This document shows, one piece after another, positions 26,471 through 64,000 of a stretch of 64,000 nucleotides of DNA. Source of the DNA: Panorpa germanica (taxonomy: Eukaryota; Arthropoda; Insecta; Mecoptera; Panorpidae); the NCBI GenBank assembly GCA_963678705.1, contig OY783203.1, positions 28,006,535-28,070,534 on the forward strand, written 5' to 3'. Numbering within the stretch: position 1 is the first letter of the stretch; the number at the start of each line of letters is the position of its first letter. The translations under genes were made by a program, and so were the position numbers. The notes under the pieces are model-generated. The model had not been told where the DNA came from, did no database searches, and worked only from the letters and a program-made list of their open reading frames with translations.

Positions 26471-29400
26471 ACAAAAGGGTCGAGTACCTACTCAGTCTCC
26501 AGTGTAACCTCCTTGTGCGTTGACGTTTTTGTTAGTTGTGTTTACTAAATAAATAAAAATAATTGAAAATGGTGTTTAAATAGACAAATGAAATTGACCT
26601 GAACAATAGACATTTGTGCGGCAGATCTTTGCGAGGCGCTTGTTCTTTGTGTAATTTATGTAAATTGAAGTAAGTATTTTTGATGATGATGGACGAGATG
26701 GACGAGGAAATTTTATGTTGGAGAATTTATAAAAGTTAACAAGCGCAAAGACGACAAAAATTAATGGTGATAAAGTAAGGTAGTAATTCTAGTGGGTTTT
26801 CTAAAGCGCGAGGTGCAAGATTCAAATACATATATTGTAATAACTTTTTCTACTTCGGTTGCGCGAGGATGCGAAGCACTTACAAAAGCGAGACCCCGGC
26901 TGGTTGCCCCGTTTGCCACCCCCTAAGGCCGCCTCTGCTGGTAGTAAAGTAATAGTAGATTTTAAAAAATATACATGGATACATAGATTATCATATTTTG
27001 ATGGTATAAATTTCAATATTTAAAACATAATTATACAAATATTTATATTTATAATATTTATTATATTATTAAACTAAATTTAAACGTTCCCGCTTCACAC
27101 CCTGCCGCAGTATCTTTGTCAAGGGTAAAAGGTTAAAGTCATAACACAAATAGTTGGTAAACAAATTATTATTTATAAAGGTTTTAAAATGTGCATATAT
27201 AAAACACGATAATCGTATATAAGTAAACCGATGGCGACATCTGATAAGATTCTGATTTTACACACGGAAAGACAATAGGATGCCACACAAAAACCATATA
27301 CAGAATTAAAGCGATGTGATATAATTTAAATACTGTTTCTTATTGCTGAGTCTGAGAAGTTACTTATAAAATATGCAAAGAATGAATCACTACTTGTTTT
27401 GTTTTTTTGCACTTTTTTTTTTATAATAGTGCAAAAAAATGTCCGTTTGTTTTAACACATGGTAAAGTATGTTACAATTAACCAATTGACATAGATTAAC
27501 CAATAGACAAGTAAAACAAATGTTTTAAAGCGAACTATCTATTTTAGAGGGGCTATTTTTAATTATCCCGAATTCTGTAAGGTCAATTTTGACTGGATAC
27601 TCATGACTCTTGCAAAAGCCTGAACTGTGATTGAAAATATAGATTCCGATGAAGCAATTGTGACTAGTTACAATGAGGTCTACAAAAAGAATAATGTATC
27701 ATTGTAGATACCATTAATTTCACTTTGTACTTACATTTTTTTTTACATAAAATTTTTTGTATATGTGTATTGGACAGAATTTTATATTTTGTCTAGAGCC
27801 CGATGAAGGTTTAAACCGGGCCTACGTGGCCTTTTTATGTTAGGAATACCTCTACCTAATAAGTTTTTATAATTATATGAACACACAATTAATACAACTT
27901 TGATAACAAATAAATTTAGAAAATATAGCGCTGGTTCGAGCATCGAGCCCGAAGATACCTACTTCATAATGTGGAATAACCTTAAAATATTCGTTTTCAT
28001 TATTTTGTCGAAATTTCTAGAAACGGTACCTTGTGCAAAAGTTGTTCAACGCATTGTAATTTTCCATTCACATTTTCGATATTTACAATTTGTACCAATA
28101 ACCCGTTAATCATACCTAAACTATAACATGAATCATTGATTGTTTGTGATAACAGACTGTTTGTGTTTTTCAAATAATGCTTTAAATATAAAAATAAACA
28201 TCGATGAAACATAAAATGAAATAAAGAATCTACAAGCTAATTACTAAACTGAAATACATTTTCAATTGTTTGAGAAAAATATTTTTAGGTGTTATTATTT
28301 AATTTGCATGTTTAACAATTTTATCATTTTTAACACATTCTTAATTATGCCTAAATAAATAACAAAATTGTTTACTTCTGCCAGTTGCAGATGCCTGTAG
28401 TGAAGATGGATTCACCGCTAAACTTAGTTAGGTGTATTTAAGGTTTATCCAACATTACAAAAGTTACTTGTTACGTACAAGAATATTAGTTAATATGGCA
28501 ACGTTTTATGATCCTTTTTACTGCTTTTTGAAAAATAAATATACCTTTTTGCGCATTTCCATACTTTTGAAAGTCCTTAAGTTATATTCGTCGAAAACTT
28601 TTGTATCTTGTTGATCAGAGGCGTAATCTTGACTCTCTTTCTCTAGTAATGTGATAAATGCTTTCAATCACACAAACAATTTGTATCCGGATTCAATTTT
28701 ATATTCAATTCTCTGTAAGGTTTGTATGTTTTTTTTAGAGAAAAGATAAATTTAATCGTTTAAAAACTTTCGAATAAAAATATATAACTGGGAATATGAC
28801 AAATGATAATTTTAAAATTATGTTGAATTATTTTATCAAAATGAAATTCTAATGAACTTAATATTTCCTTTGAACTGCATGTACAATTACAAGCATATTA
28901 TTGTTATTGTTATCTAAGACATAACATATATAAGATTATAAGAAATAAATAATAAGATTGATAATTCTAAACCTTCCTATATAGGTAGAATAATAATAAT
29001 TTTTGTAATTTTTACAATTTACAACAAGAGATATAATAGAAAATGTGTGTATACGTATGCTGAACCAAAAAAAAAGTGATTTACTGAACTCCAGCGACGT
29101 CATGTGACCAGAGCAGCACATTGTATACATTTTCAATGGCTTCAAATATTTAAAACCAATTGTATCTGAAGTTATATAAAACTGCGCTATATATTGATAA
29201 AGTTGTCTATCTAATCCTCAAATATCCAATTATTTTTATTTAATTCGCAATATCATAGAAGATATCAACGTTTAAAATAGGCATTTTTCCCATTTAATAA
29301 TTTAACTACTAGGGCAACAACAAAATTCAAACTTTAAATAGACATATATCCGTCAATTTTTGAATATTTAATAAAATAAAAACGCCGATATACGTTTATT

Positions 29401-39816: not shown

Positions 39817-40821
39817 ATGGTTTCCATCGCAATGCCTGGCGATTTGGAGATGTTAGTATCCCATAATAAGCCCGTATTTGGGCACAGTTCCTCGGGATAT
39901 CCTGCTGATAATTATCTCGTCGGAAGATTATACGAATCTCCACGTGTGTCATGTCGTCCACAAGTTCTGACACCGCCACTAAGTCGACGAGCACCACCTC
40001 CAGCAACGTTGTCCATACCACAACCAAAAAAGCAATTAGTTTTACCTACACAACTCTCTCCAAAACGTCCATGTCTGGTTACCCGACAGGAAGACATCCT
40101 AAGTCCAGAGAATAGTATTTCACCATCATCACCACGAAGCAAAAAGAAGGTCGTATTTGCAGACGATCAAGGTCTATCACTTACAGAAGTTCGAATAATG
40201 TCTGAACCATCTGATGTCCCACCTTTCTTAAAACTTGCTTTTACAAATGGATTTTCCCATGATAACTGCGAACCTTGGGAAGTTACTTTTGCTCAACCAG
40301 CTTCCGATTATTTGGGTTTCCGGCGGAAACTAGACGACGCAAAAGTATCATTGGAAAATGTTATTATTAAAGAGAATGAAGATTGCGCCACCGGCACTAT
40401 AAAGGTCCGCAACATTGCATTTAACAAAGAAGTAATTGTTCGAGCTACTTCAGACAGTTGGGAAACACACGAAGATGTTTTCGGCACATACGTCCCCACC
40501 GCTTGCCAATCCAGTGCCGCTTATATCCTTTATGATACATTTTCTTTCAAACTAACCTTACCTCCAAAATCAAGAAAACTGGAATTTTGTGTGGCTTATC
40601 GTTGCGAGGGACAAGAATTTTGGGACAACAACAATGGAGCAAATTACATATTAACTAAGAAAATTATTCCGCGTCTTCCACTCCAGCCGAACAATTTGGG
40701 AGATCTCCAAGATGTTAATAAATCAGTAAATAAATTCAGCGACGCAACAATGGCTAAAATTAGTACGTGGTCCGAATTTTCCAGTTGGCAACACTTAGAA
40801 ATTAATGGACCCTATTGGTGA
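39817..40821 (+). CDS. Glycogen-binding regulatory subunit of protein phosphatase 1 (PPP1R3/Gbs family)
   Basis: A 334-residue protein is encoded in one exon whose acceptor (TTTCTTGTTTCAG) ends at 39807; ATG 39817 is the first in frame and continues as MVSIAMPGDLEMLVSHNKP. Residues 110-114 (KKVVF) form the RVxF-type PP1 docking motif, preceded by a Pro/Ser-rich segment. A CBM21 starch/glycogen-binding domain spans about residues 154-280, with the typical start WEVTFAQP and the signature WDNNNGANY near 269-277. The family tethers PP1 catalytic subunit to glycogen, where it dephosphorylates glycogen synthase and phosphorylase. Length and layout match insect glycogen-binding subunits (Drosophila Gbs-76A/Gbs-70E type), but I cannot say which paralogue. 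The exon begins in phase 0 with AGA GCC CCC before the ATG, so an upstream coding exon is formally possible; the best upstream exon candidate does not keep frame, which favours ATG 39817. Confidence 0.9.
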   Translation: MVSIAMPGDLEMLVSHNKPVFGHSSSGYPADNYLVGRLYESPRVSCRPQVLTPPLSRRAPPPATLSIPQPKKQLVLPTQLSPKRPCLVTRQEDILSPENSISPSSPRSKKKVVFADDQGLSLTEVRIMSEPSDVPPFLKLAFTNGFSHDNCEPWEVTFAQPASDYLGFRRKLDDAKVSLENVIIKENEDCATGTIKVRNIAFNKEVIVRATSDSWETHEDVFGTYVPTACQSSAAYILYDTFSFKLTLPPKSRKLEFCVAYRCEGQEFWDNNNGANYILTKKIIPRLPLQPNNLGDLQDVNKSVNKFSDATMAKISTWSEFSSWQHLEINGPYW

Positions 40822-47237: not shown

Positions 47238-47512
47238 TTTATTTTTTTTTTTTTTTTTTTATTTAACGTCGGCCTATTTCCGATGCTGAGTCCTATCACC
47301 GACGACCTCCTTCAATGTTGGCAGTATTTATGGTGTCGTGGCCTCATATATGTGGGCTACACCACTGCCTAATAACTGTACGATTATGTATGACCATAAT
47401 CAATATAAGTTCATAATAACCAAACCCAGAAAATATATATCTGGTCCGGGGATCGAACCCGAAGACACAGCAGTCGGCGTCAAGCATCAATGCTCTCGCC
47501 GACTGTGTCGTC
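47238..47512 (-). mobile_element. tRNA-derived SINE, young copy with target-site duplication
   Basis: On the minus strand the head reads as a tRNA-like promoter: an A-box-like CAGTCGGCGAGAGC and a perfect B box GGTTCGATCCCCGG, then CAGATATATATTTTCTGGG, a body, and an A-rich tail (the T run at 47238-47262). Direct repeats CCGAAAGATTTA at 47226-47237 and 47513-47524 show retroposition. Confidence 0.85.
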
Positions 47513-48351: not shown

Positions 48352-49641
48352 TTACCCATGTCTATCACGCTTCTTCTTTTTCTTAGACTTAACTAATGTC
48401 CAACATTGTTCTTTCAATTCTTGTTCTTTGTTCTCATTAAAGGACTTTCCCAGCTTCATTGTAAGTTGGCATCGTTGCATTTCCTTGGTCTCCAAAACGT
48501 CTGTACCAGTTGCAACTTGTCCGCAACTTTTTTTTTGTCTATTGTCCTTAATGTATTTATACATTCCATTCTTTTGTGGAGATTCTTTTCCTGGACCTCT
48601 TAGAGACTTGTGACTCTCTTCTTTTTCTTCGTTTTTATTAAAACATTTCTCGAGCTTCATTTCACGTTGGAATCCGTTTGTTTTCGTAGTCTTCGAGATG
48701 TCTATACCAGTTGCAATTTGTCTGGAACTCTTTTTCTGTCCATTATACTTAAAATCTATAAAGCTTTCATCCTTTTGAGACAAATCTTTTCCCGGATTCC
48801 TTTCAAACTTGTTGCGTCTACGATAACTAGACTTAACTAATGTCCAATCTTCTTTTTTCTCTTCTTTTTCTTCGTTCATATTAAAAGACTTCTGCAGCTT
48901 CATTTCACGAAGGAATCCTGTCGTTTCTATTCGTTGAATATTCTTTTCATCCTTTTGTGGCGAATCTTCTAGTTTCTTGTAGGTAAGTAATTTCCAATCT
49001 TCTTTCTTCTCTTCTTCTTCTTCTTCGTTCACATTAAAAGACTTCTCCAGTTTCACTTCCGGTTGGCATCCGTCCGTTTCCTTAGTTTCTAGAAAGTCTG
49101 TATCAGCTGTTACATATCTGTAACTCTTTCTTCGTCCATTGTCCCAACTTTTTTTATAGTTTACATCCATTTGTTGCGAAACTTTTAGCGGAGATACTGC
49201 TTGTCTTGTCAATTCTTTTCTTTCAATATTCTGCTGCTTAGTAAGCACACCAGTGCTAGGGCTAATCAAATCTTTATGTTTGTTAGCTTCTGCAGGATTA
49301 TATGTGATCTGATTGCAGTCATTCCAATCTTCTTCAGGCTGTGGAAGTTTCGCATTGATGACCTGAATGTCGACTGCTTGTGAATCATTTGCATCACATT
49401 CTATGTATCTGTATATTTTCCAACTATCTGGACAGTTTAGCATATGTTCTTGCAACAGCTCTTCCGTTTTAAACTGATGTGTAAAATTATAAGTACAAGT
49501 ACGTGGTTTCTCCGGGCAGCGTTGCAGATGGATCTGCAATCTTGATGGCGACATACGATGGCTCTTATCGTAAGGACATTTCACATTGACATCTTCTATG
49601 TCTTGAACATTTCGTTCTATCTTTTCTGTTGGAGGCAACAT
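48352..49641 (-). CDS. GTSF1/Asterix-like CHHC zinc-finger protein with repeat-expanded tail
   Basis: The 429-residue open frame starts at an ATG (49641) preceded by an in-frame TAA with no other ATG between; a polypyrimidine-CACAG acceptor ending at 49705 suggests a short 5' UTR exon. Two U11-48K-type CHHC fingers are visible: C22-x5-H28-x9-H38-x3-C42 and C49-x5-H55-x10-H66-x3-C70. A GTSF1-like acidic tryptophan motif (PEEDWND) follows at about 102-108. Residues 165-429 are Lys/Glu-rich degenerate repeats with an [ML]KLxKSFNxNEE...EDWxLV core (about 195, 247, 328, 395), alternating with a KKSxRQVATGTDVLETKET-like block (about 170, 302, 370). Known GTSF1 proteins are about 160-170 residues, bind small-RNA-related RNA through the fingers and bind PIWI through C-terminal aromatic residues. 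The tail expansion is unusual. The terminal TAA lies inside GG|GTAAGTA, so the mRNA may splice onward and the true C-terminus may differ. Confidence 0.8.
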   Translation of the reverse strand: MLPPTEKIERNVQDIEDVNVKCPYDKSHRMSPSRLQIHLQRCPEKPRTCTYNFTHQFKTEELLQEHMLNCPDSWKIYRYIECDANDSQAVDIQVINAKLPQPEEDWNDCNQITYNPAEANKHKDLISPSTGVLTKQQNIERKELTRQAVSPLKVSQQMDVNYKKSWDNGRRKSYRYVTADTDFLETKETDGCQPEVKLEKSFNVNEEEEEEKKEDWKLLTYKKLEDSPQKDEKNIQRIETTGFLREMKLQKSFNMNEEKEEKKEDWTLVKSSYRRRNKFERNPGKDLSQKDESFIDFKYNGQKKSSRQIATGIDISKTTKTNGFQREMKLEKCFNKNEEKEESHKSLRGPGKESPQKNGMYKYIKDNRQKKSCGQVATGTDVLETKEMQRCQLTMKLGKSFNENKEQELKEQCWTLVKSKKKKKRDRHG

Positions 49642-49704
49642 GTTGTATATTTTCTTGACGGACGGAGTGCTGGAGAAGTCTTACTGGCACCAACTCTAAG
49701 TGAA

Positions 49705-52700
49705 CTGTGAACAAAACAGAAACATTTCTCTGTAATCTCAATCAAAAATAACTAACAAAAGAAATGTTGTTTATTGTTTACTGCGCTCAGTAAAATAGTT
49801 ACACAATCATTTCAAATGTAAAGACATTTGTTTTGTGAACCATTTCTTAATTATCTTTTCTTTCTATAATTATGATTTGTCATGGTCTACCATAGCCACC
49901 ACAGTACGTAATTGTATAAGTTTTACTAAATAATTTTTTAATAATTATAAGTTTTTTCAAAAACTGGGAAAGTATTATTGACATCCATTTTTAACTTCCT
50001 AATAAATTTAGATCTTTGCAAACTATATAACTTATGCAACTAAATATAGGGTTGAAAATTTATATAAAAAATTATTTTAAAGAAGCTGAAATGGAATTTT
50101 GCAATGTTGATGCCTTGTCACCGGTGGAATCTGGCATGGGGGGGAATACAAAGTTTATTTTGAGCGAAGGATTCAAGTAAATTAAAGTTGGAGAGGAGTA
50201 GTTGTATTGAAGTTTATAGTCGAGTAAGTGTGAAAGTTCACTATATGGCAAAAAAAGGACTAGGGTCCTATGAAGCAGAGTTATATATAAAGTACACATT
50301 GATCGAAATCAAATTATCAAAGCTCTCAAATGGCAGGGTATCTTACTTTTGCTATTAACAAAAAATTGTTGTCAAACAAGTTGTTAAAACACGTCATTGT
50401 TGTTTCCTACATTTTTGGTTAATAACTTTTATAATAAAAGAGATATAAACAAAAACAATTAGGTAACAATAGTAATAGTTTAATAAAAATGCACCCAGAA
50501 TCAGTGTTTTCAAGAACCCAATGATCATGACCTAAAAAATGAATGAAATTGTTTTCTTATAAGACTGCTTAAGCTTGACGGGTAATTTAATTTTTTTTCG
50601 TTTGAAAATAATGAATCAAAAAACATGAAATATTATAAATAATCTTTTAATCATACTGTTACTGAAAAAACCAGATTTTTGAAACAAAGATTTGAAAAAA
50701 TAAATGTTTATTGATTCTAGGCATAACCAAACAAATTGATGCGATATTGTACGCCTTCGATTGAGGATTTCCAAATTGATGAATTATCGTATGTGTACAA
50801 TAATTATGCTACATCTGATAATGGTGGCTAATATATATTAACATACCTTTCAATTAAAATTCAACAAATGGTTTCACAGGCCTATTTTTATTTGTGGCAA
50901 AATTTGAATAAGAAAAACCGCGAGAATGGTTTACGGTTATATATATTTATAGATAAAATATATCTATCAACAAATTTAATAATAATAATAACTATAAATA
51001 TTATTAAATATAAGAATAATATTAAATATTATTACGTATTGTTATCTGAAGTCTATTACTTGGAGTGCTTCTACAAATATTATTTTAACACCTACCAAAT
51101 ATTCGATATAATTTTTGTTGGTAATTGTACATAGGTAAGTATGTTACAGATGATAATGCGTTGGTTTCTGCGACCGTATTGCCTAGAAGCACCCCCTCCC
51201 TCTAACAGTTCAGTGATCTTTTATTGTTGTGTTTATTCTTAGTGGTAGTCATTCAGTTATGTTGTGAATTGCATCGTTTTCATTTTTGTCCTGGTTAAAA
51301 CAAACGTTATTGTCATTTTCTTATTGTTGTTAAATATTTGTAAATGAAATATTTATATAAAGTTCATATTCTACCCTGTTAAGCCGGTCATATTGGCCCC
51401 GTAAGTTGCATTGTGAGATAACCACGGCGCGGCCTTTTGAACCCGCATCCCATAAGACCCATGCGGTGGCATCTGTTCTGACTGCATTGTTTTGATTATT
51501 TAAGGTATTTATTCACAAGAGATAATTATCATTGTTTTATCAAATAAAATGTTTAAATTTTAAATTAAAATTAATTCATTTTTTGTGAAAAGAGAATATG
51601 AATTAAGAAAATGTTCAAATTTGATAATCAGCCATTTTAGTTACTTTGTTAGGAAATGGAAAAGACACCTGTCAATATTTATATATACAATACGGCTTTT
51701 CCTTGTTTTGTTGCCATTTTGAAAGTTGTATATTTCTGGTAGATAACATTTAAAAGTGACTGTTAAACATAGCTGGTACATTTACGTAATTCATTTCGGT
51801 GTACACATTTGTCAAGTTATGCTATTGTTAAATGATAGTTGTTCAAGACAAAAGTCATATTTTGGCAAAATAGAACCCTTACAAAATTACCCAGCACATT
51901 TTTTATTTATATTTATTACATTTTGGTATTTTTTATTAGAAGAATCGTTGAATTTTTCTTAAATCATATTTGTCAAGAATAGTTTTTTTATGTTGAAGGT
52001 ACATATGTGAATTTTAATTATTAATTATTGCAGAAATATGCATCACATATCAAATGAAATAATATCAAAGGTAAGAATGTAAAAAACATTATAAAAATTG
52101 CAGCTCGTTTTAATTTACATATATGCAAAATATTTTTTGTTTATTGTTATCAATGTTTAGTAATATATTATATTACATTTGTTTATTTACATTCAAAGTT
52201 CCTTTCTCTATCTCCAGAATTGTTTGTTAATTCATTAGCAAACCACCATTTTGTTTATAACACTTCTGGAAGCCGGTTGATTATTTCTGCAGGTAAAATA
52301 ATTTTTTAACAATAATTTTAGTAATAATTAGGTCATAATTTATAGATATTTGTAGGAACAATGTAAGTATGTTTGTATGCCGTGTGGTGTAGATAGGAAT
52401 TCGTGTTAATCTGTATGTCATGGAATATGATACCCTGCTTTGAATGTCGAGTGTTTTACAGTTGTGAAAATATAAATATTTATTTCCAAGAATCATGTAG
52501 ATTTCAAAACTAATTAGTTTAATTTGTTTAACGAACTTATTCGGTATGTATCGTCACAGAGCGCGAAGAACCAGTAGTGGAATTGAATCGTTGGAGAATA
52601 GTAACAGACTTAGTTTATTACCATCAAGCTCAGTACACTTAATTGTTATAATAAACTTTTCATAAATTGTGTGATCCAGTGTAAATCTGTTCTTACTCAC

Positions 52701-52820
52701 GAATCAATTTTATTACGGATTCAAAGGCTCATTGGTGGAGGTTACTTTATTTAAATATATTTCATATATCAACACAAATCAAACTCATTAGTTTAAATTT
52801 GCATCTGTTTTGGCATTTAA
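49705..52820. other. Interval between the GTSF1-like gene and the head-to-head pair
   Basis: AT-rich, with no repeat copy or coding exon recognised. It should contain the promoter of the GTSF1-like gene; an intron probably lies upstream of the acceptor at 49705. Confidence 0.45.
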
Positions 52821-52852
52821 TCACAAATAACAAATAGTTGATTTATTTCTTG

Positions 52853-53095
52853 TTATTTGTTTTTAATTCCACAATTTAACATAATATTTACATATGTGCT
52901 AACTTTATTCTTTCTAATCTCTATTAGTTTTTCAGTTCTTACGATTGATTCTGCAAGCGATCTCAACCTATAGCTTGTCTTAAATTTAACGGCTTCATCA
53001 GATTTCACACACACGCAGTTTTCTTCATTAGTAACTGCCAATTTAACAAAATTAAAGTAATTTTTAGATTGGTATTGATTACATAACAACACCAA
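52853..53095 (-). CDS. Small unrecognised protein, head-to-head with the HORMAD-like gene
   Basis: An 80-codon frame starts 26 bases from the HORMAD-like start codon, on the other strand. The last 64 residues look protein-like rather than AT-noise: a charged, probably helical stretch with RLRSLAESIV and EKLIEIRKN. An AATAAA signal follows about 20 bases after the stop on the minus strand. An acceptor-like TTAAATTGGCAG inside the frame means it could instead be a terminal exon of a spliced gene entering from higher coordinates. I do not recognise the family. Divergent arrangement would imply a shared promoter near 53096-53121. Confidence 0.33.
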   Translation of the reverse strand: MVLLCNQYQSKNYFNFVKLAVTNEENCVCVKSDEAVKFKTSYRLRSLAESIVRTEKLIEIRKNKVSTYVNIMLNCGIKNK

Positions 53096-53121
53096 TATCT
53101 AAAAGAATTGAAACTACTAAA

Positions 53122-56100
53122 ATGGCAGCCATTCGAAGAAGCTTTGATGTAAGTTATTTTTAAAAATAGAAAATTTTGTTTTAAAATTTGACTTCTAAAC
53201 ATTCACCTTTAATCTAGCTTAACTAGAATACCATACGTATATTTTTTAATCTTCTTCCCCAGTAAACAATTTGAATTCCATTTGAAATCACTTTTTTAAA
53301 ATATATGAATAATTGTCATGAATAAATTTACTCAAAGTACAAATGTCGAAATCACTTCACCTCTCAGAATCCATGCGATGATAGAGTTGATGTGAACTAC
53401 ATTGGAACTAAAAAGTGACGAAACTTCATATGGCCTTCAGCCATTTCACCAAATTGTTTACACATTTTTTCTTTATTTATATATATTTATTCTCACTCAT
53501 TTATTTATTCTTTTAGATACTCAACGTCCCAGGAATGTTAGGAGAAAGCAATTTCACAATGTTCTGCCAAATAATCGCAGGAACCGGAATCAACACTGTG
53601 TTGTACTCTCGGAAAATGTTCCCGGTGCGATCTTTCAAGACTAGTTTTCTGAACGCTGTGGATGTTCAAATCCTTCAGAAGAATTACTCAGACCCTGACA
53701 TTACTGACTTCAATGATGCTTTACGTGGAGTGTTCGAAGCTATTGGGAAGTGCTACGTACGTATAATTCATTATTTCCTCTAATTACTCTGGGCTAAGCT
53801 AACATCTACTATTCATCCTCTTGTGAAAACTCGTTCCACTTATAATGATGTAAATATTTCAGTATTTAATATTTACAATTATTAATAATTTCATTATTGT
53901 CGAATTCAACATTCTGGCATTATCAGAAATTGTGTGGTAATTCACACTTGCTGGTTTACTACCAGCTAATTTAAGTGTTACATTATATTTTCTACCTGGA
54001 CATTTTAACACTTAACTACACCTTAGAATTTATATAATATTCAATATTCAGTTCAGAAGTTTTTCTTTGTGTTGCTGTCTTTTCTTTAGTTATTACTGCT
54101 TCTTCTGGAAATAGACTACTAGAAGGATCTTCTTTTTATGCTGCCTTAAACAAAAACAACAATCATAGTATTAAACCTTTCTATTCATTTGACCAAAGTC
54201 TTGATTTTATTTTGCTTTAGTCTTATAAATTTTTCTACGTCTCATTTCTAAATGTTTTAATTCTCTTTATCGATTGGAATTATCTAGTAAATACTTATCT
54301 TTAATTGTTTCTTTAATTTTTGACAATATACTAATTTGTTTAATAAATTTAGGTACAACAACTAGCGGTGGTATTGCTGCCAAAAGATGACCGATACAGC
54401 ATATACGAAAAATTTGTCTTCAATATGAATTACAACACGCATAAATTCGAAATTATAGGAGCCACGGGAGTCCGGTAAGACACTGATCTATATTAAGAAT
54501 ATTGTTATCTTTGCCTTTCCACATTAGTAAAATTTATAAAGTAAGAAATATTATTTCTTTATATCAGTACACCTTAAGAAAAAGATTATGTTATTACATC
54601 AATAAGATTTGATTCACGTCTCTCGGGACAGGTAGTAAATTATATATGGATTCAAATAAGAAACAAATAAATATAGATTCTGTTTATTTCCAAAACAAAT
54701 TTCAGAAAGTTCTAATTATTTTTGTTCTAATCATAATGTTTTATTCATTTTTACATAAAAGATATAAGATTATCTAAGTGTTGCTGGAATATCATCAACA
54801 CAACCAGGTGAAGAAATCGGTGTAGTACCTAGAAGTTTAGAGGGAGAGGGAGTCTTACTGAGCTGTAGGAATTAGGACTGGATATAAATAAATAGGAAAT
54901 CTCTTTAGAATTCAGATGTAGGATCCAAGAAAATGTAGGATAGTGATATAACCCACTAAGCACAGCTCTGTATTTAAGGTTTATTTAGTATAACAATGGT
55001 TACCCTTTACATAAATTTATTTAGGTAAATATAATAATGTTAGGTTATTTCATTAAAATTATCTTTCGACATAAATTTACGTTTTCTGATGTTAATAACA
55101 TTTTTTATGTAAGAAAATATAATGTTACATATTAAACTAATATATACTCTAAGTATTTAACGGCTCTTACATTTATTTAATGATTATATAATTTGCTTTT
55201 TGTGTTTACCGGGATTTGATTTTGTAACGGTTTAAAATAGACTTTGTTGTGAGGCCTATACTTTTGATGAGGAAGGATTAGGCACACTGATGAATTTCAG
55301 ATGTTCAATAAACTCACAGAAAAGTAACATGTAGTGATAAAATATTGAATCAGAGCATTTAAAAAAATGTTAATACAATTCATTTTATTATTTATTTATT
55401 GTTTATGCTTTTCTGCTTTTCATTTAATTTAAATTAACAGTTCTGCTGTTCTATTTCAACATATTTTGATCATCCTTAAAACTGAACTCTTTATTTCCTG
55501 TATCTAAACTATACATTTCTCTCCCTGTCACGTGTTCTATAATTAATTTACTTATTAACCGAAAAAAGAGCATGCTTCATCTTGCTTCTTGTTATATTGT
55601 TAAGTAATTCATTTATTTATCTTCTTGACATTAACATCAAGTTGATTTTTTAATAAGAATTTATTATAGCAACTTAGATCATATTTATATCTAATATCAT
55701 TATTTCAGGACCGTTATATTAGATAATACTGATTTGAACAAACCAAATTTAATTCCTGAGATTTTTACAAAAATCAAGGATGCAATAAATGTAAGGCGAC
55801 TTGATGTTTTACCTGCTGATACTACTCCATCAATTTTTATGACTTATTACGAGGAATGTAAGTATCAATTATTGTTTAATACTTTACAATTATCTACCTG
55901 TTTGTTTATTGAATTCTTATTGGGCATGCACTTTGCGACAAGATTATTTATAATCTTTTGAGCAAATATTTTGACTTATATGACACAAGTCATAAAATCG
56001 TTGTTTGTGTTATGAAGATTAATAATTGCCTTATTAGGGATTGTTATGGTGTTATGAATTGCGGTATTTTTATTGTATGGGTGAGAATTATCAATAGTTA

Positions 56101-59100
56101 TTGATTTCTACCTGAGAGGGTTAAGTCACTTAAGCATAACCCTATTTAACGTCAGCATATTTTCGCTACTGAGTGATTTCACTGACCTTCAACTTTGTTG
56201 GCAGACTTTTTGTTGTGTAGGCATCATATATAAATTTATGATTAAATCTTTAACAGTAAATCAATTAAATTTCATAAATACTACATCTTAAAAATGTAGC
56301 GCTGGTCCGGTACAAATACACGTATACCATTTCGCGACGAAACTGCGCAACAACATAAATTAATTGTTCTTTTTTTTAGACACTCCTACATTGTATCAAC
56401 CTGAGGGATTCTTCGATTGTAATACTATGGATTATGCTTTCTTGATAAAAAGCCTTCGCGTCAATTTGGGAAAAATCAGCACCACCTTCACTCCGATGAG
56501 ATATCAAATTACTGATGTTCATCCAAGTGTAAGTAACGTTTGTTGGTTTTATAATTAATAATTAAATTATAAAGACTTTCTTTTGGGTTTATTGAATTTA
56601 AACACCATAAATGAATCACCATAAAGAGTCAGAAAGACCATTGGAATTTGTAAATGCAATATGATTTAAACATATATTTATTTCATACAAGTTGCACATC
56701 GGGGCCGTAAATCGTAATAGAATGGGCTTGTGTCCTCATTTTTAGTGGTCGATTTTTCAATTGTTGATTAAAATTGATGTTAATAAATGTAAATTGACGT
56801 GTCTATTTTATTAAATATCTAAATGTTGACGGAGTTATAGCAATTAAAAGTTTGAATTGTAGTTTTAGCGCTAGAAATGGTCGGCCATATTTTTATGACG
56901 TGAAATGCATTTTAACGTCAGTTATATGTTGAGTAGGTCAGTGCTGTGGTAATGTTTTGTAGCTGTTGGTAGTCAAACAATCAAGTCAAGTCAAAGAATA
57001 ACATGTTTTTATTTTATTTAACCCTGCTAAGGCAGACATAATATTGGAATTTTATTGTTCCTTGAAATAGCTGTAAATAATATTTGATATTTTTATACAT
57101 AAATACATATAGCAGAGATTTATGAGCTGTGATGTCACATGCACTTTGATTGTGTACAACGTTGAATCCCTTTAATAATTAAAGAGACAAAATGACGAGG
57201 AGTTATTAAAAAATAATTGAACATTTGAGGTTCTAGTAACCCACTTTATCAATATATAGTATACTTTTATAGAAAGTTAGACATAGGACACAAGCCCATT
57301 ACACAATTAAACACTTATCCTAATACTTAATAATAATGAATATTCATGATTGTCTTTATGTAATGTTTTAATATAGAATTACATTGTTGCAAAACACTTG
57401 TTGTCTTGTCAAAAGATGGGTTAAGATGGAAAGATTTTAGTGCAAAAAAGTTAGTATTTTAAAAATAGCAAACAGATAAACCCATAGTACAATTTGTTGA
57501 TACAGTTGCACAGAAGTTAGTAATAAAATAATTGGTAGTAACACGTAGCATGATGCAATTTTACACATCAAAATATTCAGGCGACCCTCACTAAATTAAA
57601 TTTACACTTTTGTCTTTAAAAACATATAAAATTAAGTTATGTTATAATCAGAGATGTGCACTAATAGTTCTCAAAAGTATTTAAATACAAAATAGACCAG
57701 GCTCTCAGACGAGTTTCTTTGCAAAATATGCAGACCGTAAACTGTTTCCAAACGAAACTCCCCTGGGAGCCTGGTCTATTTAGTATTTAAATACTTTTGA
57801 AAACCATTTGTGAACATCTCTGGTTATAATTTCATTTTGATGCATGTTTTGGTCCAATAATAAACATTAAAATTTGAAGATATGTTGAAGATACATTTAT
57901 GATTAATAATTAATTCTTGATATACTCAATTTTTAAAAACAGTATCGAGATTTTTTAAGCTTGTAGAAGTATATATTATATATCGTTTGTCCAATTCATT
58001 GGAAAGATAACTCCGAATATTGAGTTGTATGCATTTCAATGGTATTAGATAAATTTATTTGCATTATAATTTTGTTGAGTTGTATTTATGAGTTACTTCA
58101 CTCATCCGACAGACCAGAAAGTTCTACATATAACTTGCCTCAATAATGACCTCGACTATCAATATGGACGTTTTCAATCCGGAGTTATGTAACTCATCTT
58201 TCTGACGAATTTTTCAACACAAATTGTCTTGTATATCACAAAATAATACCATTGATTAACTGTTGAATATCTGTTTTTAGACTTCTCTTGCTTCATATTC
58301 TGAAAACAAATTTGGTTCTTATGCTCGTCAAATGATCACCGTTGTTATCAATCACATCTTGTACACTAGACGAGTTTTCCCACCCAACTGTTTCAGCAAC
58401 ATCCTCTATGGCGATGTAGTCCAAGTCTTGGAGAGAGATTGCTTAAACAATGAGACCATTTGCGATCGCGTAATTGAGCTATTCCGTTGGATTCTTGGAA
58501 TAGTGGATGCTGTAGAGAAAGGCTACGTGAGTATAACCTTTATATATAATATTATATATTAAATATATAGTGAAGTTTATTTGGAAACCGGTCAATCCTA
58601 CACCGTCAGTAAACAATTTGGGTGAAGTGTCCTATTTTGTGACGGTTCTATCACTATTGCACTTCAATTATAGTTCGCATCAACTTTATTTTCATTTGTA
58701 TTCTGGCAGATGGAGTGGTTTCGCCATTTGTAGCCGATAAAATAGACATTTGATATGAACGACTGTGAGAAATTGAACTGTGTAAATGAACTCTTTCATG
58801 ACAAAAAAATCATACTCAGCTTCAATATGATGGCAAAGTGACTCCAAAATGTTTATTGTGCGATTTTTATGATTTTTTTTTTAAAATGTTACTATATAAA
58901 ATTTAATAACCTTTACAAAACAAAAATTGACACTCTAATTAGGAATATAGTAAAAAATCGAAAAATTGAAATTATATGTAATGTAATGTTCTCCAGGCAG
59001 AGTGTTGATTTGATTTATTATTTAATTTATTTAACGTCGGTCCATTTCCGATGCTGTATACTATCACCGACGACCTCCTTCAATGTTGGCAGTATTTATG

Positions 59101-62100
59101 GTGTCGTGGCCTCATATATGTGGGCTACACCACTGCCTAATAACTGTATGATTATGTATGACCATAATCAATATAAGTTCATAATAACCAAACCCAGAAA
59201 ATATATATCTGGTCCGGGGATCGAACCCGAAGACACAGCAGTCGGCGTCAAGCATCAATGCTCTCGCCCACTGTGTCGTCTTTTTTATGTTTTAAATGAA
59301 CAACATTTAAACAAAAAAAAAAAATCATCGAAATCGGAGTTAGGATTGACCGGTTCCCAAATAACGCATTTTTTTGTTAAATTTCTCTACTGATAGATAC
59401 CCAGGTAAAAAATTAAGCTTGCAATTAGTTTTAAGTAAGTTTGTAACTATAAACCTTGCGCTACAAGATATTTTAAAAATGGAAATTAGTTAGAATGTGT
59501 AGCGAACGCGCTAGGCGATCTCTGAGTAAAATTTATTTTAACTTTTAAGGACAGAAATATTAAGTCTATGTTAATATAGTATGTGGTTAGCCATGGATAT
59601 TTAAATTATCTAAATTAAAATTAGCAAATGTATATTTTCAGCTGCGCCAGTTGGTGATTGCAATGGCGCCCAAACATCAGCCTCACAGCGTCTATGAGTA
59701 TTACGTGATGATCCTAAATTATCATCTTTTTACCCTAGAAATTATTGGGGCCACCAACAAAGTGTAAGTGTTATCCTATATTATAATATTCCAAGTGTAT
59801 GTTTATATGTTTACGCGATTCGTAAAGGCGCATTTTCTTGAAAATTGTCTATTTTGTAGAGAAAAAAATTCTAATACTTTTGGCGTCCTCGGATTTTCCC
59901 CTGAATATCCTGGAAACCCGTAGTTTTGGAACCCGTACTTTTTACTCTATAACTTTTAATTCATAAAAGATAGAAATTTGAAATTTGGCATGTGTATTAC
60001 GGTGTTCAATACTAACATTTTTTGAAAATTAGAAATTGAAAACTTGGAAAAGGGGGCGTTGAGAAAATTAGGGGGCCCAGTAGGAAACTTTGGAGAAAAC
60101 TCAAATTTTGGCTTACATAATAATGAAATGATGTTATTAAGAAAAATAAATTCAAATTTCAAAAATTTTATTTGGGGGCACGCGGGCGGTTTTTGCCGAT
60201 GGTAAAAATAGGGCTAGAAAGTTCAAATTTTATATATGGACTAACTTTGGTACATAATTTACAAATCGAAAAAAAATCACAAATTTTGGAAAAAAGTTGG
60301 TCAAATAATGAACAAATTGAAAAAAATATATTTTTTTAGTCAGTTTATATGAAAAATTATTTGTTGTTATATATAAAATAAATATGGAACGAGTTTAGTA
60401 TTTCAATTTAAAAATGGAATTAAAATTTGAAATTAAATTCAATTCACACACAAAAGACAGTCGTCGCTGGCTCTAGTTTATTTATATAATCAGAGGTAGA
60501 TTAGGCAGTGGGTGCACCCCGCGGCGACCTTATAGCAGGTGTTCAATCGATTTACTATTATTTCTCTTTAACTGTCCATAGTAACTTATTTTTACCATAA
60601 CTGTGACGCCCAAAGTCTGATAAATATAAATATAAGTATATTTAGTAAATAATCAATCAGTTATAAAACATATAAAAGTTGATTTGAATAAATATTTATG
60701 CTATTAAAAGATATATTGAAAAAAATGAATTACAAACACTGTACAATCGTTGTTTTATCAACAACAGTCCGAAAGTTTTATCTATGGTGATGCACGTGCA
60801 TTTATAAAGCAAAACCAATCAAATATAAACAAACAAATATAAATAATATGCTAATTTTGTTAATGTTGTACAACATTACATATAAAAGCACTCATTTAAG
60901 GTAAGTGTCTACTTATCAAAATAGAAATCATTGCACGCATTGTTTTAAGTGCGTTCACTGTTCAGTACCGTATGCATCGAACGATGCGGTAATAGATCAG
61001 CATCGGACGTTTGGTATCAAACTAATTTCGCTTTTCCAACGTTGGTCTTCTAACTTTAGTACCCAGCAGACGAGAAATAGAAAGGGACGAATACCTTGTT
61101 GCGCGTAGTATATGTTAGCAGAAGAGGAAAGAAAAGAATGTTATATAAATTAATTAATTTTAAGTATCCATTTAGTGCTCCTGCGCATTACATTTCACTA
61201 CCCGAGTCAAAATATAAATTCATATTTAAACCTCAAAATCTTCAGTGAGGTTTTCGAGGGTCAGTTTAATTTTTTGGAGATTGGATTCAACATAGAAAGT
61301 AATCCCAATTTGTACCTCAAAATCCTACTTACGGACAGTTTTACAACTTTGAGGTTCACACCAGAACTGCAGAATCTACATTTGACCCTCAAAAACTTCA
61401 AACCATATAGAAATTATTCTATACGGGTTTGAACCTCAAAAACCTCAAATGATGTAATCCCCATAAAATTTACCCCCACTCCTTTTATGTATAGGAATAT
61501 TCCATAGCAAATCGAATGGTTTAAACAATTTTAAAAACAATTTAAACGATTTTATTAACAATATTGTGTGTTTTAAAACTTAAAAAATCTAAAATGTCAC
61601 CCTCATCTGGTAACTTATAAATAGCACATAATTTTTTTTTCCCTAAACCATAAATTTTCGAAGTCCTAACTACAACTTTTTTTTTAAGTCCTAACTACAA
61701 CTTTCTGATAAATGAGAGTTTCGAGGTTATAGTTAGGATTTCAAATCAATCGGTAATCACTATTTAACCTCATAGCCTTCAATGAGGGTTTTGAGTGTTA
61801 AAGTAGAGTTACTTTCTGTGCGGCAAATGGAACACCAAAGGAATTGAGGCTTCTGAGGGTAAAACGAGAATTTGTTTTTTGACTCGGGCACCCACTTATT
61901 TAAATATGCCTGGCACATCTTTTAATAACTAATGTCAAAATATACAATTATAATGAAATATTTATGTAACCAACGTACAAAAATTTTACTAATCAATAAA
62001 TGATGTTTTCACCAAATGTTCACTGTGAACTTTTTATACTAACTTATGATAACATATTTGAAATTAACAAAATGCTATGTACACGTGTACCATATATGAA

Positions 62101-63939
62101 CCCATGCTGTTCATATGCTATGAACCCATCTACAATATAAATACAAAAATATTTCTTATTTGATTTAATAATGAAAATTTTACTAACCTTCACTACTTTA
62201 TAGTTTAGTACTTTCACAAGTGCAACTTTATTATTATTACGGTACGGTATTATTGATGAGATTGACTGTTTACCCGTACTGAACAATAGACCCTGTCAAG
62301 CTTCGTCAAGAAGAATCTCGAAATATCAAAGGTTTCGACGTATTAAATTGTATGTCGTACTAGTGTGGATGTATTGTAAAACTTATTACAACAAATGTTT
62401 TATGTCGCATGTTTATGTCGTACGTATCTGTGCAAGCCATAACATATCACTACAAACATATTTTCGTATCGTAGTAATGTCGAATAGCCTGATTGCAGTT
62501 TGAGTATTGGTTTTTGAAGCTAAGCTGCAGGTAGAAAATATATTTAAGTACGTTCAGGAAAATTTTTTACGTATTTTATAGTTTAAGTTTATGGGGTGGG
62601 GTTATGCATTTTGGCTTCTGAAACTTTCGCCTCCGTTACAATACAAAATGCCTTCGAAACGGATATTCTTTTTTTGTTGTTGTCCATAAGTCACCCTATA
62701 TTGGCCAAATGTCACTTGCTATACTAGGTCGAGTTTTAGAATATTGTATTCGAATTGTATACGATTTGGATCCAAATTGTTTGTAGGGAGAAGGTAAGAG
62801 ATATGTCTATAAAAGTTGTTTATGGAAGCAACCAGATCTTTTGCACTGACAATACAGTGCAAATCCCTGATACGATGCAGATAAATGAACACACACTTGT
62901 ATGACACGCTGCTGATGTATGAATATACCTCTAAGCAGGCGCTATTGTTATCGAATTCATTGATACGTTGCGTCCAATGACTTCCATGCTGATACGTTGA
63001 CGCCTACCTTTAGAGCTTATTATAATCTATCTTACAATCTTATAACTTAAACTATGAATTATTATGTAAACAATATTTGTTCTCTATAGGTAATATAACA
63101 ATTAAAACCAATTTGACATGGTCAATGTTTTTCTTAGTAAATAATTTTATATTGTTACAGAGCGACTAAAATAACTTTGGATGACATGGAAGGTGAAATA
63201 TTGTGCTCTCGGGTCATTCAGTTGATGGAATCAGGACTTAAGGCCACCAGTTTGGGACTCTTGCCCGAAGATGCTGAGCCGTCTATTTTCTTAACATACT
63301 ACGACAATAGTAAGTAATTTTTTCATTTATAAAAATAATCGTTTTTTTTTAGACTGGTGTTAATTATATATGGTTGAAGTTACGAGAGTTCGGCGGTGAC
63401 TCATATTTAAAACAAGTTGTGGGGTATAAACTGCTGATATAACTAAAAAGCACTGACTCACTTATATTTCTATAATGTATATAGAAACGAATAAGACAAA
63501 ATTCATTATCGTATTATAAATTTATACCGCTCTTATAACCTCTTTTAAGTATAAGTCACCGCCGATCTATCGTGATTTTGACTTATATTAGTAAAGTTGA
63601 TATCTAGTTGACATGACAGTTGCAACGACCCAGCGCACACGACGCAACATGTTGCAAACCTTAGGCCGAATCTGCCCGAAGCGATTGTGATTACAACTAT
63701 GTTGTTAGTAAGAGATAGAAGGTGTATGCGAGGGAACACGCACATTTATGTAACAGGAGACAAACAAACCAAACTGAGATTTTTTTTAAATTTAAATTTA
63801 ATATATTTCAGTTACTCCTACCATTTACCAACCGTATGGATTTTACAAGAACCACATTGAGAAATTTCCATTTCTCATCGAGGCTGGAAATTCTGTGAAT
63901 GCCAAATTGAGTTCCACTGTTGAACGTGTGTATGAAAAT
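53122..63939 (+). CDS. HORMAD/Hop1-like protein with tandem HORMA domains (3' partial, 9 exons read)
   Basis: Exons 53122-53148, 53517-53756, 54353-54474, 55709-55857, 56380-56528, 58281-58526, 59642-59763, 63161-63309 and 63812-63939 join in one open frame of 444 codons; every intron is GT..AG and the last exon ends at a GTAAGT donor, so the gene runs off the window. The start at 53122 (AAAATGG context) has an in-frame TAG upstream and no intervening ATG; it gives MAAIRRSFD before the first intron. HORMA unit 1 is about residues 20-229 and unit 2 about 235-444. Each shows the meiotic-HORMAD signatures Y-[ST]-R-x-[MV]-FP, P-SIF-[ML]-TYY and TPT-[LI]-YQP-x-GF. By family knowledge, HORMADs coat unsynapsed meiotic chromosome axes, promote double-strand breaks and homologue bias, and are removed by Pch2/TRIP13. 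Known Hop1/HORMAD proteins carry one HORMA domain, so the tandem pair is unusual. Family assignment is strong; meiotic role is inference. Any C-terminal closure motif lies outside the window. Confidence 0.85.
53517..56528 (+). other. HORMA unit 1 (exon cassette A1-B1-C1-D1)
   Basis: Four exons of 240, 122, 149 and 149 nt, separated by introns of 596, 1234 and 522 nt, encode about residues 10-229. The intron after A is phase 0, after B phase 2, after C phase 1 and after D phase 0. Recognisable landmarks are NTVLYSRKMFP in A1, EIIGAT in B1, PSIFMTYY in C1 and TPTLYQPEGFF in D1. The unit covers a whole HORMA core, including the C-terminal hairpin region that forms the safety belt. Confidence 0.8.
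56145..56320 (-). mobile_element. tRNA-derived SINE, degraded copy in HORMAD intron 4
   Basis: CTATTTAACGTCAGC, TTCGCTACTGAGTG and TGTAGCGCTGGTCCGG are the inverse of the SINE tail, body and core. It lies just before exon D1. Confidence 0.45.
56724..57297. mobile_element. GGGCTTGTGTCC MITE, copy 4 (internally deleted)
   Basis: About 574 bp with the same ends, lacking short internal stretches (for example around 57127 and 57196). It lies in intron 5 of the HORMAD-like gene. Its empty site is preserved at 32304-32307. Confidence 0.8.
57649..57822. mobile_element. 174-bp hAT-type hairpin MITE
   Basis: Starts CAGAGATG and ends CATCTCTG. The arms pair for about 60 bases (TATTTAAATAC and AGACCAGGCTC repeat inverted) around a loop of about 50 bases. 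The flanks are an exact 8-bp duplication GTTATAAT (57641-57648, 57823-57830), diagnostic of hAT transposition. The paralogous repeat keeps the empty site GTCATAAT at 32661-32668. Confidence 0.85.
58605..58860. mobile_element. Second copy of the CAGTAAACAATTTGG MITE, in a HORMAD-gene intron
   Basis: Near-identical along its length to 18305-18560 (CCTATTTTGTGACG, TGTAGCCGATAAA, CATGACAAAAAAATCAT), with more degraded ends. A further end fragment is at about 53264-53290, just upstream of HORMAD exon A1. Confidence 0.7.
59015..59280 (-). mobile_element. tRNA-derived SINE, second young copy
   Basis: Nearly identical to the copy at 47238-47512, with a handful of differences. It lies within HORMAD intron 6 in inverse orientation to the gene. 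No clean target duplication is visible. Confidence 0.8.
59855..60110. repeat. Dispersed repeat, inverse copy in HORMAD intron 7
   Basis: CTAATACTTTTGGCGTCCTC, TGGAAACCCGTAGTTTTGG and GGCATGTGTATTACGG correspond in inverse to 22100-22320. The equivalent of the poly(C) run here is a short G run near 60050. Confidence 0.6.
61201..61887. mobile_element. 687-bp transposon with CCCGAGTCAAAA ends and internal CCTCAA repeats
   Basis: CCCGAGTCAAAA at the left and TTTTTTGACTCGGG at the right are inverted ends. The interior is peppered with AACCTCAAAA / TTTTGAGGTT motifs in both orientations. No coding capacity. It sits in HORMAD intron 7. Confidence 0.6.
62330..62440. repeat. End fragment of the ATGTCGYACTAGTGTGGA repeat
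   Basis: GACGTATTAAATTGTATGTC and GTACTAGTGTGGATG match the right end of the repeat at 33405-33450. Located in HORMAD intron 7. Confidence 0.5.
63381..63573. mobile_element. Short MITE with ACGAGAGTTCGGCGGTGACT ends, copy in HORMAD intron 8
   Basis: The left end is inverted at the right as AGTCACCGCCGATCTATCGT. Core AAAAAGCACTGACTCACTT and GTATATAGAAACG match the copy at 5586. Confidence 0.65.
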
Positions 63940-64000
63940 GTAAGTAACAACGTATATTTTATAATTTTTTTTTAAATAAAAATAACAAATATGTTTTAGT

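Follow-up and report, generated by a model that had tools for sequence, protein, structure and literature searches.

HORMA domains use a mobile safety belt to grip closure-motif peptides, and it is by binding such motifs that meiotic HORMADs reach chromosome axes, as set out in parts of PMC13381836 and PMC6349405. A chromatin-binding region composed of a PHD finger and/or a winged helix occurs in 107 of 149 surveyed HORMADs; in yeast Hop1 the PHD–winged-helix region binds nucleosomes, and in vertebrates it has been lost (sections of PMC10907721). One described system with several meiotic HORMADs divides roles among them and assembles via HORMA domains and closure motifs, each member being a separate protein with one N-terminal HORMA domain (portions of PMC6349405 and PMC13381836). 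The origin of this division of roles among HORMAD paralogs is called poorly understood (in a part of PMC13381836). Human HORMAD1 and HORMAD2 are a pair of this kind, encoded by separate genes and differing in recruitment: HORMAD2 depends on the closure motif of SYCP2 for its presence on axes and HORMAD1 does not (according to a section of PMC13396342).

The gene described here departs from these arrangements by carrying two HORMA units within one open frame. It starts in the window, the whole 64,000-nt stretch of DNA analysed, which corresponds to positions 28006535–28070534 of contig C21 (C21 coordinate = window coordinate + 28006534). The nearest layout is that of animal Hop1 proteins with a PHD and winged-helix region, for example Bombyx mori HOP1 (542 aa), with a HORMA domain at residues 28–234 and a PHD finger behind it at 279–325 (part of PMC10151401). 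The same layout is seen in our model of a paralog on contig C8, whereas the C21 gene has two copies of the HORMA block and a modelled middle region of 1,437 residues. Two HORMA domains working as a pair are found in the Mad2 conformational dimer and in Atg13–Atg101 (the latter proposed, in a portion of PMC4034400); however, these pairs form between two chains and serve other pathways, in contrast to the C21 pair, which is predicted to lie within one chain. The bacterial CBASS type III gene cap8 (Cap8) is said to encode two HORMA domains (passage of the review PMC10002423); it belongs to anti-phage signalling and is comparable with the C21 gene by description only.

In the open-access literature we found no two-HORMA meiotic HORMAD, and predicted ones may exist in eukaryotic protein annotations. 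The same literature yielded no paper linking HORMA with arthropods, duplication and the synaptonemal complex, the one paper that came up for a doubled HORMA concerns a double HORMAD1/CT83 knockdown, and the word "tandem" is absent from PMC9141381, PMC8131943, PMC10997794 and PMC13396342. Within this scope we rate the tandem two-HORMA arrangement as new among meiotic HORMADs.

Exons and HORMA units within the window

Nine plus-strand exons (53122–63939) join into 1332 nt, or 444 codons, with no stop; AG precedes each of exons 2–9 and GT follows each of exons 1–9. This confirms the original prediction of a 444-codon frame assembled from nine exons through GT..AG introns. Read in the two remaining forward frames, the joined exons contain 32 and 28 stops, compared with 32.0 expected in 444 codons from the stop frequency of the introns. 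The GC content of the part of the gene inside the window is 0.40 in exons vs. 0.295 in introns.

Exon 1 (53122–53148; phase 0 to 0) supplies the start codon and encodes MAAIRRSFD. Its ATG stands in the context CTAAAATGG, an in-frame stop lies upstream at 53065, and the donor consists of exonic GAT followed by GTAAGT. HORMA unit 1 is encoded by exons A1 (53517–53756; 240 nt, phase 0-0), B1 (54353–54474; 122 nt, phase 0-2), C1 (55709–55857; 149 nt, phase 2-1) and D1 (56380–56528; 149 nt, phase 1-0), the last of which covers the safety-belt region. The donor of A1, at 3.8 bits, is the lowest among the nine. After an intron at 56529–58280, unit 2 follows with exons A2 (58281–58526; 246 nt, phase 0-0), B2 (59642–59763; 122 nt, phase 0-2), C2 (63161–63309; 149 nt, phase 2-1) and D2 (63812–63939; 128 nt, phase 1-0). 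The 5′ part of the next intron (63940–64000) closes the window, and the modelled gene continues outside it. The two blocks therefore have lengths of 240/122/149/149 and 246/122/149/128 nt and identical phases at every exon.

A search with the Pfam HORMA profile (PF02301) matches the 444-codon protein with an E-value of 5.4e-41 in two stretches: unit 1 at 4.4e-20 (profile positions 4–208 of 209) and unit 2 at 1.8e-20 (6–196 of 209), so the two successive HORMA units that had been proposed are indeed present. The landmarks ascribed to them, Y-x-R-x-x-FP, PSIF-x-TYY and TPT-x-YQP-x-GF, are likewise all found in both. Sequence identity between the units is 30% (E 5e-34), and this similarity combined with equal exon phases identifies a duplicated block and rules out chance. 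No third unit accompanies them: beyond the known exons, tblastn of the window returned one weak stray match (26605–26727, E 3.3), and the same match appeared at E 5.3 when 39.5 kb of downstream sequence was included. We also excluded an assembly or copying artefact, as the units are just 30% identical and a repeat search over 52000–64000 (seed 12, at least 25 nt) links no blocks. A pseudogene as the main reading is excluded by the absence of stops in the 444 codons and within the 2,072 codons of the extended model.

Among solved structures, the closest relative of each unit is human HORMAD1 (PDB 8j69), which matches unit 1 at 8.2e-15 and unit 2 at 4.1e-14. REV7 (MAD2B) and MAD2 reach at best 0.051 and 0.78 with unit 1 and are absent up to E 1 with unit 2. 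Within these structures neither unit has MAD2 or REV7 as its best match, and the genome holds a separate MAD2-like locus. Hop1/HORMAD proteins are recognised by a single N-terminal HORMA domain, in place of which the C21 frame contains two Pfam HORMA stretches. Nevertheless, its start exon, block phases and tail follow those of a single-HORMA Hop1, and we class it as a Hop1/HORMAD variant. There is good support for one gene of Hop1/HORMAD type that is predicted to carry two HORMA domains: its tail beyond the window is of the Hop1 chromatin-binding type, and contig C8 holds a largely collinear paralog with a single HORMA domain.

The units differ at the safety belt. The belt end encoded by D2 falls 7 codons short of that of D1 and 8 codons short of that of the corresponding exon D on C8; in the alignment to HORMAD1, unit 2 stops short of the belt end and unit 1 runs through the belt. 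Both features lead us to expect unit 2 to be a specialised member of the pair.

Downstream exons, the C8 paralog and the probable internal duplication

Beyond the window we placed eleven further exons (10–20; G000:C21:28073961-28080370, plus strand) manually, guided by splice signals and open frames. The resulting model has 20 exons and 2,072 residues in an open frame, reaches roughly 9.8 kb beyond the end of the window and stops at extended coordinate 73836. The two alternative frames of exons 10–20 contain 125 and 161 stops. The predicted layout is HORMA1–HORMA2–long low-complexity middle–PHD–winged-helix-like segment. Lysine and arginine make up 28% of residues 445–661 (exons 10–14). The weakest link in the model is the donor of exon 10 (−1.0 bits), a poor score which leaves the 3′ end of this exon uncertain, and the model could have missed further exons between 63940 and 67426. 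Exon 15 is 3,495 nt long and begins with five in-frame 180-bp repeats (G000:C21:28075459-28076358; 60 residues each, 99% identity), followed by a 162-bp repeat in 3.6 copies at 91%. The exon 15 array is a recent expansion.

Exons 17–19 encode a PHD finger (Pfam PHD_5, 1.6e-6, 28.5 bits with a cut-off of 27). A joint profile of the C21 and C8 tails matches PDB 9mug (2.4e-12), with an alignment crossing the PHD finger and the next segment, and 9myp (6.9e-10); both entries carry the name HORMA domain-containing protein. The C21 tail by itself matches 9mug at 8.7e-6, ranking just below two SET3 PHD fingers. Pfam gave no winged-helix match in either the C21 or the C8 model, and our assignment of this segment is based on the 9mug alignments. 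Taken together, a PHD finger followed by a winged-helix-like segment is what is found in the tail, which we therefore read as a putative Hop1-type chromatin-binding region.

The paralog on contig C8 (locus L009, 11216000–11225580, with L010 and L011) was also modelled by hand, giving 13 exons and 639 residues with one HORMA domain (1.2e-42), a PHD finger (PHD_5, 6.3e-8) and a winged-helix-like segment in the tail. Judged by this architecture, it looks like an ordinary single-domain Hop1. As in C21, its exon 1 is short, carries the ATG and has phase 0-0, and phases agree between the two genes at exon 1, at A, B, C and D and at the final five exons; the exons between the HORMA block and the final five differ in number, and the four-exon HORMA block is present twice in C21 vs. 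once in C8. The shared phases suggest that the C21 gene is the C8 layout with A–D doubled and the middle expanded. The phase agreement in the tail is partly the modeller's choice, because exon ends in hand-built models are picked to keep the frame, but it is supported by the alignment of the two tails (26.7% identity over 135 columns, E 2.7e-18). By eye, the C-terminus ends in an acidic stretch in the C21 model and in a basic one in the C8 model.

Profile searches covered 464 Mb in 249 contigs, and the best candidates were scored. With PF02301, four exon matches were obtained among eight scored candidates: unit 1, unit 2, C8 and a locus on C19. The latter (L002, G000:C19:10996270-10999590; HORMA 2.8e-9) looks, by eye, like a MAD2-like locus. 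The same search produced a match in none of 14 control genomes. When the units themselves served as queries, unit 1 gave 7 and unit 2 gave 8 matches at E ≤ 10, confined to C21 and C8 among the best candidates, and the C8 matches to the unit 1 query were weak (E 0.0035 and 0.289). No REV7-like locus is among the candidates listed in the PF02301 genome search, which indicates that its reach is limited and that more distant HORMA genes may be missed. SYCP3 (Cor1) had no match in this genome or in any of the 14 control genomes, and none of 96 pattern stretches in viral contigs was confirmed as a relative.

A five-sequence tree of unit 1, unit 2 and C8, with HORMAD1 and HIM-3 as outgroups, places the two units as sisters (ultrafast bootstrap 90, standard bootstrap 85). 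Support for the pair is 98 in the quartet lacking C8. Grouping unit 1 with C8 is rejected by the AU test (p 0.011), grouping unit 2 with C8 is rejected at the borderline (p 0.049), and the c-ELW test keeps the latter alternative. Branch lengths are 1.21 and 0.79 for the units vs. 0.35 for C8, and with five sequences and such long unit branches, long-branch attraction is possible. The raw score of unit 2 is higher with C8 (139 bits) than with unit 1 (108 bits), and of the two units it is the one closer to the paralog. The evidence favours, as the simplest history, an internal duplication of the four-exon block that would have taken place after the split between the C21 and C8 genes. The suggestion that one domain is canonical and the other divergent holds in part: the belt end of unit 2 is indeed shorter, yet this same unit is nearer to C8, so that neither unit is simply canonical.

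Reading the locus as one gene

Very probably, the locus is one gene encoding two HORMA domains. The block phases are symmetric, no convincing start exon precedes unit 2 and a single tail follows. Exon D1 ends in phase 0 and A2 starts in phase 0; the D1-to-A2 join is predicted from these phases and from the absence of a good separate start exon. Within the D1-to-A2 intron there is no ATG exon with a phase-0 GT[AG]AG donor. Candidates running from an ATG to any phase-0 GT number 20 there, the best of them scoring 4.9 and 4.3 bits, and five other non-coding stretches yield best scores of 3.6 to 5.4 bits (a sixth, shorter one yields none).

These observations bear directly on the possibility of two adjacent genes, namely a truncated HORMA gene consisting of unit 1 and a second gene consisting of unit 2 and the tail. 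The higher score of unit 2 with C8 would fit such a case, in which the older gene could be the one made of unit 2 and the tail. The intron also contains 87 AG-to-stop terminal-exon candidates, mostly short, together with 12 A[AT]TAAA signals of a kind that chance also produces in AT-rich DNA, and its two best start-exon candidates score above A1, the real donor with the lowest value in the window (3.8 bits). However, the 20 loose candidates score as in other non-coding stretches, and the stricter ATG exon is lacking. In addition, the acceptor of A2 (exon 6) is a TAG forming an in-frame stop, and hence this exon cannot be extended upstream. D1 has a good donor, which at 6.5 bits ranks 23rd among 661 GT sites, and a separate unit 1 gene would be left with no recognisable tail. 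We consider two genes very unlikely. A live rival arises from the fact that both blocks are 0-0 and exon 1 can join exon 6 in frame. Exon 1 might be spliced to either A1 or A2, and either D1 or D2 to exon 10, so that mostly single-HORMA products would result; exon 1 plus exons 6–9 gives an open, in-frame join, and phase 0 is shared by the ends of D1 and D2 and by the start of exon 10. Such alternative use would nevertheless require four exons to be skipped jointly, and no other sequence feature speaks for it, which makes it quite improbable.

A different doubt concerns the protein rather than the gene structure. The C21 gene could be a relaxed, fast-evolving paralog that contributes little or nothing to meiosis and whose second HORMA domain no longer has a belt switch. 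This would agree with the long branches of the units relative to C8, with the belt end of unit 2 shortened by 7–8 codons and with the near-identical repeats of exon 15. A frame of 2,072 codons that stays open, including the 3,495-nt exon, against the many stops in the other frames of exons 10–20, argues to the contrary, as do the high Pfam scores of both units, and we regard a relaxed paralog as unlikely. The explanation that we prefer, with somewhat better than even confidence in its entirety, is a single gene with an internal duplication, a role on the axis and a covalent HORMA pair.

Putative function and neighbouring features

Under the preferred explanation, the gene would be a diverged Hop1/HORMAD paralog in which the phase 0-0 four-exon HORMA block was doubled inside the gene. 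By analogy with described HORMADs, the tandem protein would be placed on meiotic chromosome axes, and such an axis role is likely; its tail may contact nucleosomes, as the corresponding region of Hop1 does in yeast. A linker of about 10–20 residues would join the HORMA domains into a covalent pair, which could hold two closure-motif peptides, or one peptide and a HORMA partner; bridging of two partners or self-assembly in cis, as first suggested, might follow from this. Unit 2, with its belt end shortened, would be the specialised member. According to Ye in 2017, Pch2/TRIP13 reportedly works on HORMA domains via their N-terminus. If so, unit 1 might be directly accessible to it, with unit 2 becoming accessible only afterwards. 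A covalent pair with divided roles is a reasonable possibility, although we hold it with less than even confidence. More tentatively, and with considerable doubt, we speculate that unit 1 of this built-in pair grips an axis closure motif and is releasable by Pch2, and that the N-tethered, short-belt unit 2 acts as a fixed docking face. The jobs that mammals divide between HORMAD1 and HORMAD2 would then be merged in one chain beside the C8 Hop1, and the tandem protein would anchor both to nucleosomes via its PHD–winged-helix tail.

A doubled domain in one chain and a single-domain paralog in the same genome make the number of HORMA domains separable from gene copy number. The locus could thereby serve as a natural experiment on the effect of a second grip on meiotic chromosomes, and as a clear test case for the ability of Pch2 to remodel a HORMA domain with a tethered N-terminus.

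Several other features lie in the window, in which no tRNA genes were found. A dispersed repeat of 267 bases occurs in the A2–B2 intron (59014–59280) and, with 95.9% identity, at 47246–47512; weaker copies are located near 4.9, 5.3, 8.6, 24.5 and 43.4 kb. The D1–A2 intron contains an inverted repeat (57642–57829) with 79-nt arms that are 87% identical and 30 nt apart, which may be a small transposable element. On the minus strand, an open frame of 442 codons (48355–49680) encodes a U11-48K-like CHHC zinc finger (5.9e-10). A plus-strand open frame at 39817–40818 encodes a CBM_21 domain (5.6e-32), presumably of the type found in glycogen-targeting phosphatase subunits.
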